Positions 2,459 to 21,716 of a DNA stretch of 32,538 nucleotides are shown piece after piece. The notes below the pieces were generated by a model. It did no database searches and was not told the DNA's origin. It saw only the letters and a program-made list of their open reading frames with translations. Each line of letters opens with the position of its first letter. The first letter of the stretch is position 1. Position numbers and translations under genes: made by a program. The stretch lies in IMG/VR virus record IMGVR_UViG_3300029922_000213, positions 1-32,538 of that record; one strand, written 5' to 3'. The stretch is from a virus.

Positions 2459-4232
2459 TCTTAGACGACGCCTGTTTTTCGATGATTTTCGCGTATTCCT
2501 CCGGGTTCTGCTTCTGGAGCTGCTGCATCAGCGCCGCTTGCTTCTCTTCCTTGGCGCGCAGACGCGTCAGGATGATGTCCCTATTCTGGAATGGCAGCAT
2601 CTCGATGGCAGATTCGGGGTCGATGATGCCCAGCTTCAGGCCGCCCACGATGAGCGACTGATGATCGTCGGCGAAGATCGGCGACGTGGTGTGGCCGTCC
2701 ACCGTCACACGCCGATCTTCCGGCAGGTCGGCCAGAAGGAATTGCGTCTCGTTCGGGTGCTTCGGATCGGTCCAGTAGGCTCGGCCGTCCTTCGCCTCCA
2801 TGATGCTCAAACGCAGATCACCCGCCGCGGCGCACTGCCGCTCGATCAGCAAGGACCGGTCCTTCAGACGCGCACCCGCCGCCTTCATCATTGGGTTGCT
2901 CTGCACGCCGCTGCGCACGCCTGGCTCGCCCTTTCCCGACAGCATGTTGTCAAAACCGCTAATCATTTCAATGATCTGGATCAGCTTCTCCAGAAGCGGT
3001 AACGCCTCGGCCGGGAACTTTGGCGTCAGGTCCACGGCGCTTCCGCTCGGGCCGAGGTTGGCATACCCGGCCTGGCGCATCTGGTCGTAAAGCTCATCCG
3101 TCAGCCCGTCGCCTGAGAACGCCAGGAGCTTGTCGACCTGCAGACCGAACAGCCGGCGAATGTCCGACGCGGTTTCGGCAAGGAAGTCTTGCGGGTTGAT
3201 CAGGTCGGCGATCTCGCTGCGCCCCCACAGGTTGCCCGACGTGGGGTTGGCCTGGATCAACGTGAACGGGTGCAAACCGCACTGGTGACCCGATATCAGC
3301 AGGTTGGACCGCTTCCACCGCGGCGCGATCAGGATGTCAGGCTCGATGATCTGGATCGTGGTGTAATCGTCGCCGTCCCACATCCACGTCTCGTGCATCA
3401 CCGCTATCGGCGCCGCGCCGGACGGGCCGACGCCGCCATAGTTCGGGTCCGTGGACAGTTGCACGATGCCGCCGGGGACCGGCCGCGACGCCGCACCGGC
3501 CCCGGTGTTGATCTGCGAGGTGTTCAGCACCTGGTGGAAAAAGCTGTTCGCAACGTCCGTCGCGCCGGGCGCGGCATGCTGCTTGATCCGGTCAAACAAC
3601 TGCCGCGCGTCCGGCATGTGGTAGATTCGTCGCCACACTTCCGGCATCGTCAGCGTGACGCTCTGGGTCATCGCCGGCTGGTCGTCCAGGGAGTTGGTGT
3701 CCGGCCTGTAGACCCCCATTTGCCATGGCATCACGAGGCTGGAATGGTAGGTCGGAAGCTTCTCTGATCCGTCCTGCGTGACCCACTGTTTCAGGAAGCA
3801 TGAACCGTATTTCAGCGCCTCGAACACCCCCTGGGCGAACAGGATGTCGGTGTTCGTCCGCTCGAATGAGCGCGCCAGGAGCCGGGTCGCGACGTTGCCG
3901 CGCTTGAGGATTTCTTCCGGGTATTCGTTCTCGAAATCCATGGAGAAACGGATTTCAGTCGGCGAGAACAGGTGCGACGCGAGCCGGTCGATCAGGCTAT
4001 AAAGCAGGTTGATCAGCGATCGGGACCCATCGGACTTGCCGCTTTCCACGATCATGTTGAGCTGGCGATAATAGGCAGCGCGCTGGCCGACATCCGACCG
4101 GCAGATTTCGTTGATCTCCATGACCTGCCGGACGAGTAGCTTGTTGTCTTGCGGCAGTTCCATGAAGGCGTCGGGACGCGACGCCATGGACTTTTTCGAC
4201 GGGAAGTCTAGGACTTTCGCTTTATCGCTCAT
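2451..4232 (-). CDS. Portal protein
   Basis: 593 residues, a usual size for a phage portal (head-to-tail connector that forms the DNA channel). It directly follows the terminase and linker genes, the standard order. By eye it has portal-like features: an N-terminal helical region ending SLINLLYSLIDRLASHLFSP, a middle domain with DDYTTIQIIEPDILIAPRWKR and GLHPFTLIQANPTSGNLWGRSEIADLINPQDFL (the conserved wing/stem transition seen in many portals), then long helices and a Lys/Gln-rich C-terminus (KQAALMQQLQKQNPEEYAKI) for the crown. The call rests on size, pattern and position; an alignment was not possible. Confidence 0.8.
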   Translation of the reverse strand: MSDKAKVLDFPSKKSMASRPDAFMELPQDNKLLVRQVMEINEICRSDVGQRAAYYRQLNMIVESGKSDGSRSLINLLYSLIDRLASHLFSPTEIRFSMDFENEYPEEILKRGNVATRLLARSFERTNTDILFAQGVFEALKYGSCFLKQWVTQDGSEKLPTYHSSLVMPWQMGVYRPDTNSLDDQPAMTQSVTLTMPEVWRRIYHMPDARQLFDRIKQHAAPGATDVANSFFHQVLNTSQINTGAGAASRPVPGGIVQLSTDPNYGGVGPSGAAPIAVMHETWMWDGDDYTTIQIIEPDILIAPRWKRSNLLISGHQCGLHPFTLIQANPTSGNLWGRSEIADLINPQDFLAETASDIRRLFGLQVDKLLAFSGDGLTDELYDQMRQAGYANLGPSGSAVDLTPKFPAEALPLLEKLIQIIEMISGFDNMLSGKGEPGVRSGVQSNPMMKAAGARLKDRSLLIERQCAAAGDLRLSIMEAKDGRAYWTDPKHPNETQFLLADLPEDRRVTVDGHTTSPIFADDHQSLIVGGLKLGIIDPESAIEMLPFQNRDIILTRLRAKEEKQAALMQQLQKQNPEEYAKIIEKQASSKRR

Positions 4233-18300: not shown

Positions 18301-18586
18301 GGCCAGCGGCCTGCAAAGCCTTGATCACGGCCACAGACCACGTGTCCGAACGCTCCCTGTCGATAAACGAGACGATGCGATCGTATTGCACCTTGCCGGC
18401 AGCGTCCTTGACGACAGTGCCGCCTGCGGCGATCCGGGCGCGCGACGGTGGCGCACACCATGGCGCGCCGTCCCGCTCGAACACAGGGCACTCGTGCAGC
18501 GTCATCCCGGATGGCATCTCGACGGTGACGAAGCCGACCAGAGCGCCGCTACGTCGGGCTAACGCTGCCCATTTCAAGATTCGCAC
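18293..18586 (-). CDS. Conserved small phage protein, replication operon
   Basis: 97 residues from GTG 18586. Beta-rich start GALVGFVTVEMPSGMTLHEC, then APWCAPPSRARI, VVKDAAGKVQYDRIVSF and a terminal helix TWSVAVIKALQAAG. This order (G-F-x-T-V-x-x-P-S-G-M-x-L-x-x-C-P, P-P-S, D-x-x-G-K-V-x-Y) looks like a conserved family of alphaproteobacterial phage proteins of unknown function, as I recall it. Resemblance to a single-stranded-DNA-binding fold is possible but not shown. Confidence 0.65.
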   Translation of the reverse strand: MRILKWAALARRSGALVGFVTVEMPSGMTLHECPVFERDGAPWCAPPSRARIAAGGTVVKDAAGKVQYDRIVSFIDRERSDTWSVAVIKALQAAGHV

Positions 18587-18777
18587 TGGCCGGTCTTTTG
18601 AGCTGCGGCGGGGGGATCGGCCTCGTATCCCTTCAATCCCGCCTCCAACAGCAGGATCAAGGCGTCGTTTTCGTATTTCAGGCGTCGGTTGAAACGGAAG
18701 TCGTCAATCCGCCGCAATAGGTCTACGGTCTTGAAGTTGATGGTGCGGTTCAGGCGCGTTGTTCGGTGTTCTGGCAT
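18574..18777 (-). CDS. Ribbon-helix-helix-like DNA-binding protein
   Basis: 67 residues from ATG 18777. RTTRLNRTINFKTVDLLRRI (beta strand then helix) followed by DDFRFNRRLKYENDALILLL and EAGL fits an Arc/MetJ ribbon-helix-helix: basic strand, helix one, turn, helix two with A-L-x-x-L-L-E-A-G-L. It probably acts as a transcriptional regulator. It overlaps the next gene by 13 bases. Position in the early operon suits autoregulation. Confidence 0.65.
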   Translation of the reverse strand: MPEHRTTRLNRTINFKTVDLLRRIDDFRFNRRLKYENDALILLLEAGLKGYEADPPAAAQKTGQCES

Positions 18778-18855: not shown

Positions 18856-19080
18856 TTCGCATACTCCGGGACGAGGGATAGCGCGACGCGCTTGCCAGCG
18901 TCGGTGAGCACATCGACGATCCGGATGTCTAGCGTGTCGGAGAGGGTGCGCCACGCTAGCGATCTCGCTTTGCCCGCCGTAGCCGCATAGAAGACATCCG
19001 GGCCGTCGTAGCTCCTGACCCATACGCGCCAGGCTTTTGCGCAGCCGGGTTGCCGGCGTCGTCGTATCAGGCTTGGGCAC
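18852..19080 (-). CDS. Small phage protein split by an apparent +1 frameshift
   Basis: A GTG at 19080 with AGGAAAA upstream opens VPKPDTTTPATRLRK. The clearly protein-like remainder (KAWRVWVRSYDGPDVFYAAT, AGKARSLAWRTLSD, RIVDVLTDAGKRVALSLVPE) is in the next frame and has no usable start of its own. Skipping one A in the CGCAAAAGCC run (AAAA, plus-strand TTTT 19035-19038) joins them into 75 residues, with the span of 229 bases being 3n+1. Either a base insertion has broken the gene, the assembly has an error, or a programmed +1 shift is used. Similar single-domain proteins (A-W-R-V-x-V-R-x-Y-x-G-P) occur in phages. Confidence 0.5.
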
Positions 19081-19294
19081 TGTTGTTTTCCTTTCGTGCT
19101 GGAGGCGGGTTGCGCTCGCGAAATCGGGCCAGTCTTTCAATCCAAGCGGCGTCGGCATCCGGGATTTTCACCTTGCCAGCGAGGTATTGCCTGATCGCGG
19201 CTTCCTGCCTGGATAACTGCCGTCCCGCCTCGCGCTGGGTCCATCCCAGGATAGCGATGCACTCAGCGATCCGAGCCGGCGTCACGAAGAACAT
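19067..19294 (-). CDS. Cro-like HTH protein 2
   Basis: 75 residues from ATG 19294 (GAGAAAGG upstream). RIAECIAILGWTQREAGRQL and SRQEAAIRQYLAGKVKIPDA form the helix-turn-helix with recognition helix SRQEAAIRQY, followed by AAWIERLARFRERNPPP. It is clearly paralogous to the protein at 19975-20184 (same G-W-T-Q-R, R-Q-E, I-R-Q/V-R-Q, I-P-D, L-A-R-x-x-E-R-N-P motifs). It lies in the sub-operon downstream of the operator-paired promoter at 19724-19767. Probable repressor. Confidence 0.78.
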   Translation of the reverse strand: MFFVTPARIAECIAILGWTQREAGRQLSRQEAAIRQYLAGKVKIPDADAAWIERLARFRERNPPPARKENNSAQA

Positions 19295-19526
19295 CCTTTC
19301 TCGCTCTTTGCAGCGGCTCTTTCTCATTTTCGTAGCAAAGCACCGTGCGGCCATCCCTTTCAGCGTATGCCTTAGCCTTCGCTAGATCGGCCTCGGTGCC
19401 CTTGTTGAGCCACATGCAGGCCATCGGCTTCGGCACTGCTTTGAACTTGTGGGGACGCCCTATGTCGGGCTGCCCCTCTTGAACCATCACGCAATCCTCA
19501 TCCAACCAAGCGAGAACGATTTGCAT
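19263..19526 (-). CDS. Hypothetical early protein
   Basis: 87 residues from ATG 19526. Reads MQIVLAWLDEDCVMVQEGQP, then KPMACMWLNKGTEADLAKAK and a Lys/Arg/Glu helix. The middle W-L-N-K-G and Y-A-E-R-D-G-R-T-V-L-C-Y-E motifs suggest a small alpha/beta fold. Overlaps the HTH gene by 32 bases. No family recognised. Confidence 0.55.
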   Translation of the reverse strand: MQIVLAWLDEDCVMVQEGQPDIGRPHKFKAVPKPMACMWLNKGTEADLAKAKAYAERDGRTVLCYENEKEPLQRARKDVLRDAGSDR

Positions 19527-19529
19527 TTC

Positions 19530-19685
19530 TTAGCCCTCCTGCGCCCACTGGTCTGCCTTCATCGAATACCATTCGTTAGCTTCCAGGTCGGTCATGTCGC
19601 CGCTCTCAACCATGTTGCAGAGGTCTGACATCAGTTCGCGAAGCATTTGTTCGCGGCGGGCTTCGAAGCGGGATGGATGGATCAT
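19530..19685 (-). CDS. Small charged early protein
   Basis: 51 residues from ATG 19685, with GGAGA upstream and ATGA overlap with the 38-residue gene. Helical and acidic: FEARREQMLRELMSDLCNMV, ESGDMTDLEANEWYSMKADQ. It is the first gene after the downstream operator-paired promoter. Function unknown. Confidence 0.55.
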   Translation of the reverse strand: MIHPSRFEARREQMLRELMSDLCNMVESGDMTDLEANEWYSMKADQWAQEG

Positions 19686-19798
19686 CTGAAGTCTCCGTGG
19701 TGTGTCTGTTTCCGATAACCAGGACAATACGCATATTGCGTATCTTCGTCCACCGCAAAATGCGTATCAGCGCAAATTATTTTGGTGATTTCACTCAT
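19682..19798 (-). CDS. 38-residue protein overlapping an operator pair
   Basis: ATG 19798 to TGA 19682. Reads MSEITKIICADTHFAVDEDT, then QYAYCPGYRKQTHHGDF. It contains a repeated D-T-[HQ]-[FY]-A word because two operator-like palindromes are read in frame. Its start overlaps the RanBP2-finger gene. It may be a real Cys/His mini-protein, or the stretch may really be a promoter region. Confidence 0.4.
   Translation of the reverse strand: MSEITKIICADTHFAVDEDTQYAYCPGYRKQTHHGDFR
19724..19767 (-). promoter_or_regulatory. Promoter with operator pair (downstream copy)
   Basis: On the minus strand TGGACG (19752-19747), a 17-bp spacer and TATTGT (19729-19724). The spacer holds ATACGCA-ATA-TGCGTAT (19727-19743), a perfect palindrome around three bases, and ATACGCATTTTGCGGTG (19751-19767) lies directly upstream. 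The two centres are 24 bp apart. Same layout as 20564-20617. Drives the sub-operon with HTH protein 2. Confidence 0.6.
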
Positions 19799-19982
19799 CG
19801 ATCGGCATTCCTTCATATGGCGGCAGCGGGTTGTAGTAAGGAAACTCGCCGGCGTTGGAATCGTAGCCACATGACCGGCAGAACTCGCGGATAGCGAGGT
19901 TCATCGTCTTGCAGTGTAGACAGTCCCAGTTTGGTGTCGATGTCCATAGGGCTTCTTTGGTCGTCTTAATTTCATCATTCAC
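19791..19982 (-). CDS. RanBP2-type zinc-finger protein
   Basis: 63 residues from GTG 19982 (GGAG upstream); an ATG 12 codons earlier has no ribosome-binding site. Residues from NWDCLHCKTMNLAIREFCRS through C-G-Y-D-S spell W-x-C-x2-C-x3-N-x6-C-x2-C exactly, the RanBP2 (RBZ) zinc finger, known mainly from eukaryotic single-stranded-RNA or ubiquitin binders and from a few bacterial proteins. Flanks: Lys/Glu-rich N-terminus and a Pro/Tyr-rich tail (YYNPLPPYEG). RNA binding is inferred from the family. It overlaps the HTH gene before it. Confidence 0.72.
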   Translation of the reverse strand: MNDEIKTTKEALWTSTPNWDCLHCKTMNLAIREFCRSCGYDSNAGEFPYYNPLPPYEGMPIDE

Positions 19983-20184
19983 TTTCTGCACTCCGCTTTG
20001 GTAGTGGGTTGCGTTCATGGTATCGAGCCAGCTTGTCGAGCGCTGCTGCAATCTCATCAGGTATCTGAACTACACCTCTCGCCCATTGCCGCACGGTGCC
20101 TTCCTGGCGCCCAAGCATCCTGGCTAGACCCCGTTGGGTCCAGCCGATTGCCTCCAAGCATTCCCGCAAGCGGGTGGGGGTCAT
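19975..20184 (-). CDS. Cro-like HTH protein 1
   Basis: 69 residues from ATG 20184 (ATGA overlap). RLRECLEAIGWTQRGLARML and GRQEGTVRQWARGVVQIPDE make an HTH with recognition helix GRQEGTVRQW, then AAALDKLARYHERNPLP. Paralogue of 19067-19294. It is in the transcript of the promoter at 20564-20617 whose spacer carries the operator palindrome, so autoregulation is likely. A phage repressor or Cro function is probable, which of the two proteins plays which role is not known. Confidence 0.8.
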   Translation of the reverse strand: MTPTRLRECLEAIGWTQRGLARMLGRQEGTVRQWARGVVQIPDEIAAALDKLARYHERNPLPKRSAESE

Positions 20185-20519
20185 GCCCCCATTCCCCTCG
20201 CGTAATCAATAGCCTTGCTCATGATCTGGCGCGTAACATAAACCTGGGCCGCCGGGGCTGTGTGGCCAACCGCTTTTAGCGCTGCACGGAACTTGCGGTC
20301 GTCGTCGCCGCAAAGCCGAACCAAAAATTCCCACTGCTTTATTGTTGCCTGCATGGCCTCGGGGATGACCGGCGCAACCGGCTCAAAGCGAACACCAGCC
20401 GCCTTGCTCGTCAGTTTGCCCGAACCACTGCACTGGAAGCACACGCCGTTCGCGATGCCGGAAAAAGCTGCGATCTTGCCGGAGCCGGAGCATTTGAAGC
20501 ATTCGAAGGTTGCGGTCAT
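20181..20519 (-). CDS. Protein with two DnaJ-like zinc motifs
   Basis: 112 residues from ATG 20519. CFKCSGSGK near residue 7 and CFQCSGSGK near residue 27 are paired C-x2-C-x-G-x-G motifs like the DnaJ zinc domain. The rest is helical: EAMQATIKQWEFLVRLCGDD, DRKFRAALKAV, VYVTRQIMSKAIDYARGM. Stop overlaps the HTH 1 start. First gene after the upstream operator-paired promoter. Zinc-dependent protein or nucleic-acid binding likely; function unknown. Confidence 0.68.
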   Translation of the reverse strand: MTATFECFKCSGSGKIAAFSGIANGVCFQCSGSGKLTSKAAGVRFEPVAPVIPEAMQATIKQWEFLVRLCGDDDRKFRAALKAVGHTAPAAQVYVTRQIMSKAIDYARGMGA

Positions 20520-20563
20520 CGGGATAATCCTCGTTTCCGGGCATCATCGCCTCGGTGAAGATA

Positions 20564-20617
20564 GATATACGCATATTGCGGATAACGGTCAACAGGAAAT
20601 ATGCGCAATCTGCGGAT
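20564..20617 (-). promoter_or_regulatory. Promoter with operator pair (upstream copy)
   Basis: Minus strand: TTGACC (20592-20587), 17-bp spacer, TATATC (20569-20564). The spacer contains ATCCGCA-ATA-TGCGTATAT (20565-20583); ATCCGCA-GAT-TGCGCATAT (20599-20617) lies upstream of the -35. Centres are 34 bp apart, one helical turn more than at 19724-19767. A dimeric repressor bound at the spacer site would block polymerase. Drives the gene at 20519 and HTH protein 1. Confidence 0.7.
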
Positions 20618-20823
20618 TATTTTTGATCGAGGGCTGGAGGGGCAGAGCAACGATCGCAATCCTCAAAATACCATCCGTGATATTGCCGATCGCCATACGT
20701 GCGCCATTGCTCCGCTGCGCCGACGCCATGACAGATCGAGCAGCCGGGATCAGGGTGCCAATCGAATTTGAGCCAGCCGTTTGGCGTCCATACTGTGCGC
20801 GTGCGCGCGGTCGTATTAGACAT
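20617..20823 (-). CDS. Zinc-finger-like protein
   Basis: 68 residues from ATG 20823 (GGATTATCCCCG leader). CSICHGVG near residue 28 and CDRC near residue 57 form a C-x2-C-x-G-x-G / C-x2-C pair with W-F-E-D before the second pair, like half a DnaJ zinc domain. Eight-base overlap with the previous gene; ends at the operator. Function unknown. Confidence 0.62.
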   Translation of the reverse strand: MSNTTARTRTVWTPNGWLKFDWHPDPGCSICHGVGAAEQWRTYGDRQYHGWYFEDCDRCSAPPALDQK

Positions 20824-21025
20824 CGGGGATAATCCTTTCATGCCGCCACGTTGCCCACGCTGCTTTGCGCGGAGATAGATCGCTCATCCCCTTGGTCTGC
20901 CACAGACCGCCGGTCCACAGAGCTTCGAATTCCTCTCGGGTAGAGCCATCCCCGACCTCGGCAGACAGCCAGTGCATCGTAAAGTCGTCAGTTCCGGTTG
21001 GTGGAAGGCACAGTTCGTCACTCAT
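20816..21025 (-). CDS. Small early protein
   Basis: 69 residues from ATG 21025, with GGAG upstream and an 8-base overlap with the recombinase-like gene. Begins MSDELCLPPTGTDDFTMHWL and contains TREEFEALWTGGLWQ and LSPRKAAWATWRHERIIP. Trp-rich C-terminus. Unknown family. Confidence 0.55.
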   Translation of the reverse strand: MSDELCLPPTGTDDFTMHWLSAEVGDGSTREEFEALWTGGLWQTKGMSDLSPRKAAWATWRHERIIPDV

Positions 21026-21716
21026 TGGGTTTCTCCTTCTTCGCGACGCGCCGCTTCCGGCGCTTGGGTTGCTTTCTGACCACTGGCGTCTTCGCTTTTC
21101 GAAGTTCCTTGGCTGCTTTCTCGACAGCATCGGTCTTGTGGCCCAGGTCAAGAAATAGGGTTCTGATGCCGACTTTTACGCCCGTCTGTGCCTGAATTTC
21201 AGCAGCAATCTGACGCGCGCTCAGGTCTTGGCGGCCCCACAACTCCCGTGCCAGCCTCATCACATCGCCGGAAAGCAGCTTCGGCCGCCCTAAGATTGGC
21301 CCACTGTTGTTCCGGACCCGCGCATTCTCACGTGTCAGTATCTTGGCGCCATTGGCGATCAGACCGGCGATCTCGGCAGTCTGCGGCGTGAAGTCAAATA
21401 TCCGCCCATCAGCCATCATCAGCGACGCCGCGCGTTCTCCTATCGCCGCGTGCGCTTCCCACAGGCCGCCCTCCGTCAGCCCCAACGAGGCTTCATCGAA
21501 CACCACCAGGGTATCGCCAGAGCGAAGCGACTGGACCGCCGCTATAAGCTGAGGTTGCGGCGGCTGGCCGCGCCTCGGCACCATGTCCACATAGATCGGC
21601 GGATGAGTTCCATCGACCCGAACGCCGGCTTTAATCAGCGCCGCCCGTTGCTCATCTACCGATGGCCCCTTCTTCCGCTCTCTGATGTAGCCTCTTAGCA
21701 TTCGGCGCCCATGCAT
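21018..21716 (-). CDS. Serine-recombinase-like protein with degenerate active site
   Basis: 232 residues from ATG 21716 (ATG 21701 also possible). The fold resembles a resolvase N-terminal domain: LRGYIRERKKGPSVDEQRAA, SGDTLVVFDEASLGLTEGGL and ERAASLMMADGRIFDFTPQT, followed by an HTH (VMRLARELWGRQDLSARQIA) and a Lys/Arg-rich tail. In active enzymes the first motif is Y-x-R-V-S; here V-S is E-R, so the nucleophile is lost, and the D-R-L-x-R motif reads E-A-S-L-G. It is probably a DNA-binding regulator rather than a recombinase. It heads the early leftward operon. Confidence 0.72.
   Translation of the reverse strand: MHGRRMLRGYIRERKKGPSVDEQRAALIKAGVRVDGTHPPIYVDMVPRRGQPPQPQLIAAVQSLRSGDTLVVFDEASLGLTEGGLWEAHAAIGERAASLMMADGRIFDFTPQTAEIAGLIANGAKILTRENARVRNNSGPILGRPKLLSGDVMRLARELWGRQDLSARQIAAEIQAQTGVKVGIRTLFLDLGHKTDAVEKAAKELRKAKTPVVRKQPKRRKRRVAKKEKPNE

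Follow-up and report, generated by a model that had tools for sequence, protein, structure and literature searches.

The window analysed here, the full 32,538 nucleotides of the IMG/VR virus record IMGVR_UViG_3300029922_000213, encodes on its minus strand two small paralogous helix-turn-helix (HTH) proteins, HTH1 and HTH2, each in an operon behind its own promoter (P1 and P2, respectively) with a pair of matched palindromes, and the question raised by this locus is what such an arrangement controls. The best reading, to which we give a probability of roughly 0.78, is that HTH1 represents Aca-like autorepressors of early accessory operons in phages of probably Alphaproteobacteria. An earlier note on this DNA had proposed a two-promoter, two-repressor switch; its operator-like sites of the HTH family, their helically phased pairing and their overlap with the promoters stand, whereas the switch itself is not supported.

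The minus-strand sequence between 18800 and 21200 was read directly, and both promoters, four palindrome cores and both spacings are present (Table 1). The two -35/-10 pairs, each with a 17-bp spacer, and the four cores lie where the earlier note had placed them, with centres 34 bp apart at P1 (20575 and 20609) and 24 bp apart at P2 (19735 and 19759), and the register it described is likewise shared, the proximal core forming the last 11 bp of the spacer at both promoters. Matches to ATMCGCANNNTGCG in the 32.5-kb record are confined to the four HTH-linked sites; the bare CGCANNNTGCG matches at three more positions (5284, 13099 and 17364), where the flanks are absent. With one mismatch allowed, the bare core showed no enrichment window-wide (37 found against 36 expected). 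Since the degenerate core is not rare inside the window, the evidence had to come from relatives.

HTH1 has no match among 50,697 cultured phage records. Its close viral relatives number 28, and 76 relatives are reached with the family alignment. Loci with similar upstream DNA were merged, leaving 38 independent upstream regions, in which 1.5 kb upstream was searched. Of the 38 regions, 27 contain the palindrome TATnCGC-N5-GCGnATA, the total being 46 sites compared with 10.0 in dinucleotide shuffles (maximum 23, 200 shuffles), while the equal-sized downstream region used as a control holds 11 sites and zero pairs. The pairs are spaced 24, 29, 32–35 and 42–43 bp, and the 200 shuffles gave none at 24–25 or 31–35 bp; as the spacing classes were picked from the same data, the pair count is descriptive, against a null that is essentially zero. 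Among 43 distinct promoter modules, an exact distal core is found 24 or 31–35 bp upstream in 26 (shuffled mean 0.08, maximum 2) and a -35 TTG lies 12 bp ahead of the proximal core in 32, the spacings overall being 24 or 31–36 bp, with 34 bp the commonest, and the distal site being absent in five even when one mismatch is allowed. The 24-bp spacing of P2 recurs in the loci L016, L005 and L006. The register of the operator against the -35 and -10 elements is constant in relatives, and the right arm of the proximal palindrome, GCG-TATA, extends into the -10 element. The predicted operator recurs far beyond chance, at the same place between -35 and -10 near related HTH genes of uncultured phages, and its geometry is that of a putative repressor site with a second site at either of two positions one helical turn apart. 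The search of relatives for which the earlier note had called found the paired sites kept beside the same gene, with HTH proteins 50–75% identical, and the loss of the palindromes, which that note had named as evidence against its proposal, did not occur. The palindrome alone was of no use as a search key: ATACGCANNNTGCGTAT retrieved 120 loci from the viral contigs, none with the HTH family, and this exact form is mostly chance. The promoter-shaped TATSCGCN4TGCGTATA gave the HTH family in 10 of 104 loci.

Alignment of the promoters revealed an element that is absent from the earlier note and proved more informative. Nearly all of them run on into CCG-A-GGC-N4-6-GCC-CGG and then CGAGGA-N-CCCG-ATG, a conserved leader that is present after P1 and absent after P2, and transcription should begin a few nucleotides before the first hairpin. 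Class-1 leaders (n = 38) show double-sided changes at two pairs, and 29 leaders from several HTH subfamilies show them at 6 of the 10 pairs (16 cells; 0 of 500 shuffles), a signal that is lost when the partner strand is slid. A slot-by-slot parse agrees with the covariation, two of its 54 rows (L315 and L358) being misparsed. The bulged A is retained in nearly all copies. As predicted structures, hairpin 1 is well supported and hairpin 2 less so, because the inner pairs of the latter hardly vary. It is covariation, not thermodynamic folding, that makes the case for the proposed structure; the window leader folded by itself gave unconvincing values (z -0.6 in one calculation, and -2.5 with a competing fold in another). 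No Rfam family reaches its curated threshold for the leader.

Pattern scans with the leader only, covering 2.9 million viral contigs, tie it closely to the HTH family. The class-1 pattern occurs in 28 contigs, all with an operator and a promoter in front, and the HTH family is encoded in 27 of them; the 28th contig stops just behind the leader. The reversed class-1 pattern was found in 0 contigs of the viral set. For the class-2 pattern, 12 of 13 contigs carry the HTH family. The exception, L375, has a leader-like match (about 3290–3332, minus strand) ahead of a possible HNH-type gene, with neither an operator nor an HTH gene among the open reading frames (ORFs) read. The covariance model R1, whose E-values are rough, detects the leader upstream of HTH genes from subfamilies outside the model (L312, L309, L321, L298, L308, L311, L324, L328 and others); all 34 listed matches are on the strand of the gene, and nothing was found in 747 kb from 76 unrelated viral loci. 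The HTH protein is the only one common to the 32 compared loci, the next family occurring in 10, and one family entry of 27 loci mirrors the HTH gene on the opposite strand. Two named plasmids, Komagataeibacter nataicola pKNA05 and Methylobacterium indicum pVL1_3, carry the leader as well. The former (L354) has two significant leader copies over the whole record and two sub-threshold ones, a phage baseplate gene and an HTH relative, and offers a cultivable carrier. In genome contigs, the pattern gave only four matches, none with the HTH family, which were taken as chance, so that hosts are not readable from prophages.

The recognition helix of the HTH protein varies together with the flanks of the operator. 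The helix xEGTVRQW pairs with TATnCGC..GCGTATA, DEGTVRRW with ATTCCGCAnnnTGCGGAAT, D[DE]R[LM]VR[RW]W with [G/T]TCCGCAnnnTGCGGA[C/A], and HETRVRRW, in the second HTH protein of L006, with TGACGC..GCGTCA. This covariation supports the HTH protein as the probable binder of the operators. In L006, the gene of this second paralogue (3247–3465) has, at about 2780–2870, its own palindrome, TGACGC..GCGTCA, on the -35 element and its own leader, in which GAGC/GCTC replaces GGC/GCC.

From the anatomy, conservation and phasing of the module, its covariation and its co-occurrence with one protein family, we infer a mechanism in which the HTH protein would be the binder. A strong sigma-70-type promoter would drive one or a few small accessory genes and then a Cro/Aca-like HTH protein of about 70 amino acids. 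The promoter would be free early in infection, and the rising HTH protein would later shut the operons down, its dimers on the proximal palindrome in the -35/-10 spacer blocking RNA polymerase and a second dimer, 24 or about 34 bp upstream (one turn apart), likely binding cooperatively. The second bulged-A hairpin, which lies over the ribosome-binding site, may provide a further post-transcriptional layer through mRNA protection, control of the ribosome-binding site or protein binding. In the window, HTH1 and HTH2 would probably each bind all four sites, though not equally strongly, P2 being a weakened unit.

An autorepressor with promoter palindromes is already known. For every bacterial Aca family tested, a conserved inverted repeat lies in the core promoter, in several cases as one of two or more, and the promoter is repressed by the cognate Aca (PMC9410906). 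Like acr-aca operons (PMC9410906), the HTH operons encode a small HTH protein on phages or plasmids behind small variable genes, and the HTH module resembles Aca in that an inverted repeat, often accompanied by a second one, lies within the core promoter of the regulator's operon. Aca10 binds AATACGCTCA-T-TGAGCGTATT, a 21-bp site across -35/-10 whose half-site ATACGC is the same as at P2 and whose spacer between half-sites is 2 bp longer than in the operators of the HTH module (PMC9410881). Unlike Aca, the HTH module has a conserved two-hairpin leader and phased pairs at 24 or 34 bp, and unlike acr-aca operons, no known acr has been shown beside the HTH genes, no comparison to an Acr library having been made. 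The best fold matches of the AlphaFold model of HTH1 are Aca2, Aca7 and C.Kpn2I, with Aca1 among the top ones. A profile comparison of HTH1 with solved proteins gave no significant sequence match (Aca1 E 0.39), the Aca proteins covered being those with solved structures. The HTH family probably works like Aca; its membership is not established.

Several points weigh against the autorepressor reading. The operator was missing from 11 of the 38 upstream regions at the chosen stringency, and the GCGTATA half of the palindrome is constrained by the -10 element as well. The classes of helix and operator are also clades, which leaves few independent events behind their correlation. The fold matches are not significant (Aca2 E 0.07), and HTH folds are widespread.

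The rival explanations that survive best concern the leader. It may be merely a 5'-terminal element that stabilises the mRNA and binds ribosomes efficiently, with the HTH protein acting on DNA alone, and we put this at not quite even odds. Hairpin 1 starts within a few nucleotides of the expected transcription start and hairpin 2 carries a good Shine-Dalgarno sequence by the ATG, but the bulged A, the fixed letters of the arms and the strict linkage to one regulator family are not needed for such a role. A more tentative proposal is control at two layers, in which the HTH protein would bind the DNA operators and, on the mRNA, also the hairpins of the leader, so that the ribosome-binding site is blocked; this would extend, and does not exclude, the autorepressor reading. 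The leader is common to all HTH subfamilies and wider than any one operator type, and the strand-specific R1 matches upstream of HTH genes outside the model, with none in the other viral loci, point the same way, as do the near-constant bulged A, the likeness of the hairpins to a single site repeated in tandem (hairpin 2 lying over the Shine-Dalgarno sequence) and the HTH protein as the sole shared protein. Nevertheless, a host protein, or no protein, would account for the leader equally, and P2 of the window has operators but no leader. Aca2 is said (2024) to be an HTH regulator that represses at both DNA and RNA, with a structured 5' leader over the ribosome-binding site. The HTH module is similar in combining an HTH regulator with a structured 5' leader that covers the ribosome-binding site, while the HTH protein is about half as long and lacks the C-terminal domain of Aca2, and RNA binding is here only predicted. 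If the HTH protein does bind the leader, small HTH proteins would have arrived at dual DNA/RNA control more than once, and such control would not be specific to Aca2. It is conceivable, if rather unlikely, that these proteins form a lineage of their own among small phage HTH proteins, with two-level control through paired promoter operators in the DNA and bulged-A RNA hairpins over the ribosome-binding site, and that the operator-promoter-leader block is an exchangeable regulatory cassette for anti-host genes.

Improbable in our view is a logic of activation and repression, in which the distal dimer alone would activate and a filled proximal site (-18) would repress, producing a pulse or hump of expression. 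The distal centres (-52 at P1 and -42 at P2) are at positions typical of activators, and the spacing classes are one turn apart; yet promoters with near-consensus -35 and -10 elements need no activator, and five of the 43 modules have no distal site. The switch between HTH1 and HTH2 is considered very unlikely. It is suggested by two paralogues that are 52% identical, two operons and the same core at both promoters, but the majority of relatives carry a single HTH gene and one to four units, the two promoters are co-oriented, and no gene pair for lysogeny was seen. P2 has also lost quality in its -35, -10 and leader relative to the aligned promoter of L016 (TGG against TTG, and TATTGT against TATAAG, with most of the leader gone); it thus resembles a worn version of a promoter that is intact in L016, and P2 is likely weaker. 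A lambda-type bistable or divergent lysogeny switch was rejected: both promoters are on the minus strand, no CI-like partner was seen and relatives mostly have one HTH gene. Binding of the sites by another protein, for example a host regulator or the small ribbon-helix-helix-like product of 18574–18777 (minus strand), which weakly matches a phage repressor family (phrog_4738, E 1e-4), is the least probable of all, as no family other than the HTH proteins occurs in every locus that has the module.

For the autorepressor module as a whole, a leader RNA tightly coupled to operator, promoter and regulator over unrelated cargo was not found in the libraries searched. The nearest analogues of the leader-cargo arrangement appear to be the SAS/ESAS elements of cluster K mycobacteriophages and the early-gene signals of archaeal viruses (PMC3203893; PMC11065993). 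SAS is a 13-bp sequence, GGGATAGGAGCCC, with 11–19 copies per genome and no linked regulator (PMC3203893). Both SAS/ESAS and the leader are short conserved elements with a Shine-Dalgarno core a few nucleotides before the starts of many unrelated genes, and inverted repeats lie upstream of some SAS copies; the leader differs from GGGATAGGAGCCC in being CGAGGA-n-CCCG, structured as RNA, promoter-linked and tied to one HTH family. The leader was therefore rejected as a SAS/ESAS element, its sequence differing from the SAS consensus (PMC3203893). In archaeal viruses, one regulatory sequence also precedes many unrelated small early or anti-defence genes and Aca-like regulators occur, with archaeal promoter signals as the difference (PMC11065993). 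HTH1 and HTH2 belong to phrog_4779, a 'transcriptional regulator' family that is a name only, with neither operator nor leader attached to it there. A phage regulator family so far uncharacterised gains a predicted operator, a predicted promoter and a new structured leader RNA. Since there are 40 unrelated families among the 43 first genes that follow distinct leaders, the module could act as a bait with which to find early accessory and possibly anti-defence genes in alphaproteobacterial phages, a use with precedent in the conserved regulatory sequences of archaeal viruses (PMC11065993).

Table 1. Features of the two HTH operons in the window. Site centres are counted with the -10 hexamer taken as -12 to -7.
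Feature	Position	Strand	Remarks
P1 distal operator core CGCAGATTGCG (19-mer AATCCGCAGATTGCGCATA)	20604–20614	-	Predicted; centre about -52; more than half of 43 distinct modules have a distal copy 31–36 bp upstream
P1 proximal operator core CGCAATATGCG (TATCCGCAATATGCGTATA)	20570–20580	-	Predicted; between -35 and -10, centre about -18
P1 promoter TTGACC-N17-TATATC	20564–20592 (TTGACC 20592–20587, TATATC 20569–20564)	-	Predicted; relatives with same layout
Leader RNA of P1, two-hairpin element ending at start codon	20517–20559	-	Model R1: 52.6 bits, E 6e-10, sole match in window
Leader hairpin 1, CCG-(A)-GGC [GATGAT] GCC-CGG, bulged A	20537–20555	-	Compensatory changes at 4 of 6 pairs across family
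Leader hairpin 2, CG-(A)-GG [loop] CC-CG, Shine-Dalgarno GAGGA inside	20520–20533	-	Adjoins ATG 20519; covariation weaker than hairpin 1
First gene of operon 1, 112 amino acids, CxxC-rich	20181–20519	-	Cargo position; unrelated to first genes of other modules
HTH1, 69 amino acids	19975–20184	-	phrog_4779 E 2.6e-11 (residues 1–58); four-helix AlphaFold model, pLDDT 89.5
Small ORF after HTH1, zinc-ribbon-like CxxC pairs	19791–20057	-	Start uncertain; weak
P2 distal operator core CGCATTTTGCG (GATACGCATTTTGCGGTGG)	19754–19764	-	Predicted; centre about -42
P2 proximal operator core CGCAATATGCG (17-bp palindrome ATACGCAATATGCGTAT)	19730–19740	-	Predicted; centre about -18
P2 promoter TGGACG-N17-TATTGT	19724–19752 (TGGACG 19752–19747, TATTGT 19729–19724)	-	Predicted; degraded relative to L016, leader lost
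First gene of operon 2, 51 amino acids	19530–19685	-	67% identical to first gene behind intact 24-bp module of L016
Second gene of operon 2, 87 amino acids	19263–19526	-	No family match
HTH2, 72 amino acids from GTG 19285 (75 from ATG 19294)	19067–19285	-	52% identical to HTH1; phrog_4779 E 2.9e-4

Three loci (L001, L209 and L254) are the same virus as the window (99.8–100%), and the close-relative scan with HTH2 found it in this virus only. The start of the HTH2 gene is probably the GTG, as VTPARIAECI matches the family start, and not the ATG taken by the earlier note (19067–19294). The same virus aside, the window resembles the DNA of other phages around P1 only across the module (20506–20606), which is 81–90% identical; together with the diversity of the cargo, this indicates that the control unit persists as the genes that follow it are replaced. 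Full units number one to four per record and cluster near the HTH gene. L256 and L289 have four successive units of operator, promoter and leader, every unit followed by one or a few small genes, in what resembles a cassette-like array. One of the few recurrent cargo families is a small protein with a coiled coil and a probable membrane helix, encoded directly before the HTH gene in about seven loci (4729–5001 in L006, and similar ORFs in six others).

Small CxxC-rich, zinc-ribbon-like proteins surround the HTH genes of the window, namely the two listed in Table 1 and the product of 20617–20841 (minus strand). The ribbon-helix-helix-like protein may be a second regulator. The product of 21018–21716 (minus strand) has a resolvase/invertase-like N-terminus (phrog_125, E 6e-5), in which the region expected to hold the catalytic serine reads YIRERKKGPS, and it is possibly an inactive recombinase serving as a regulator.

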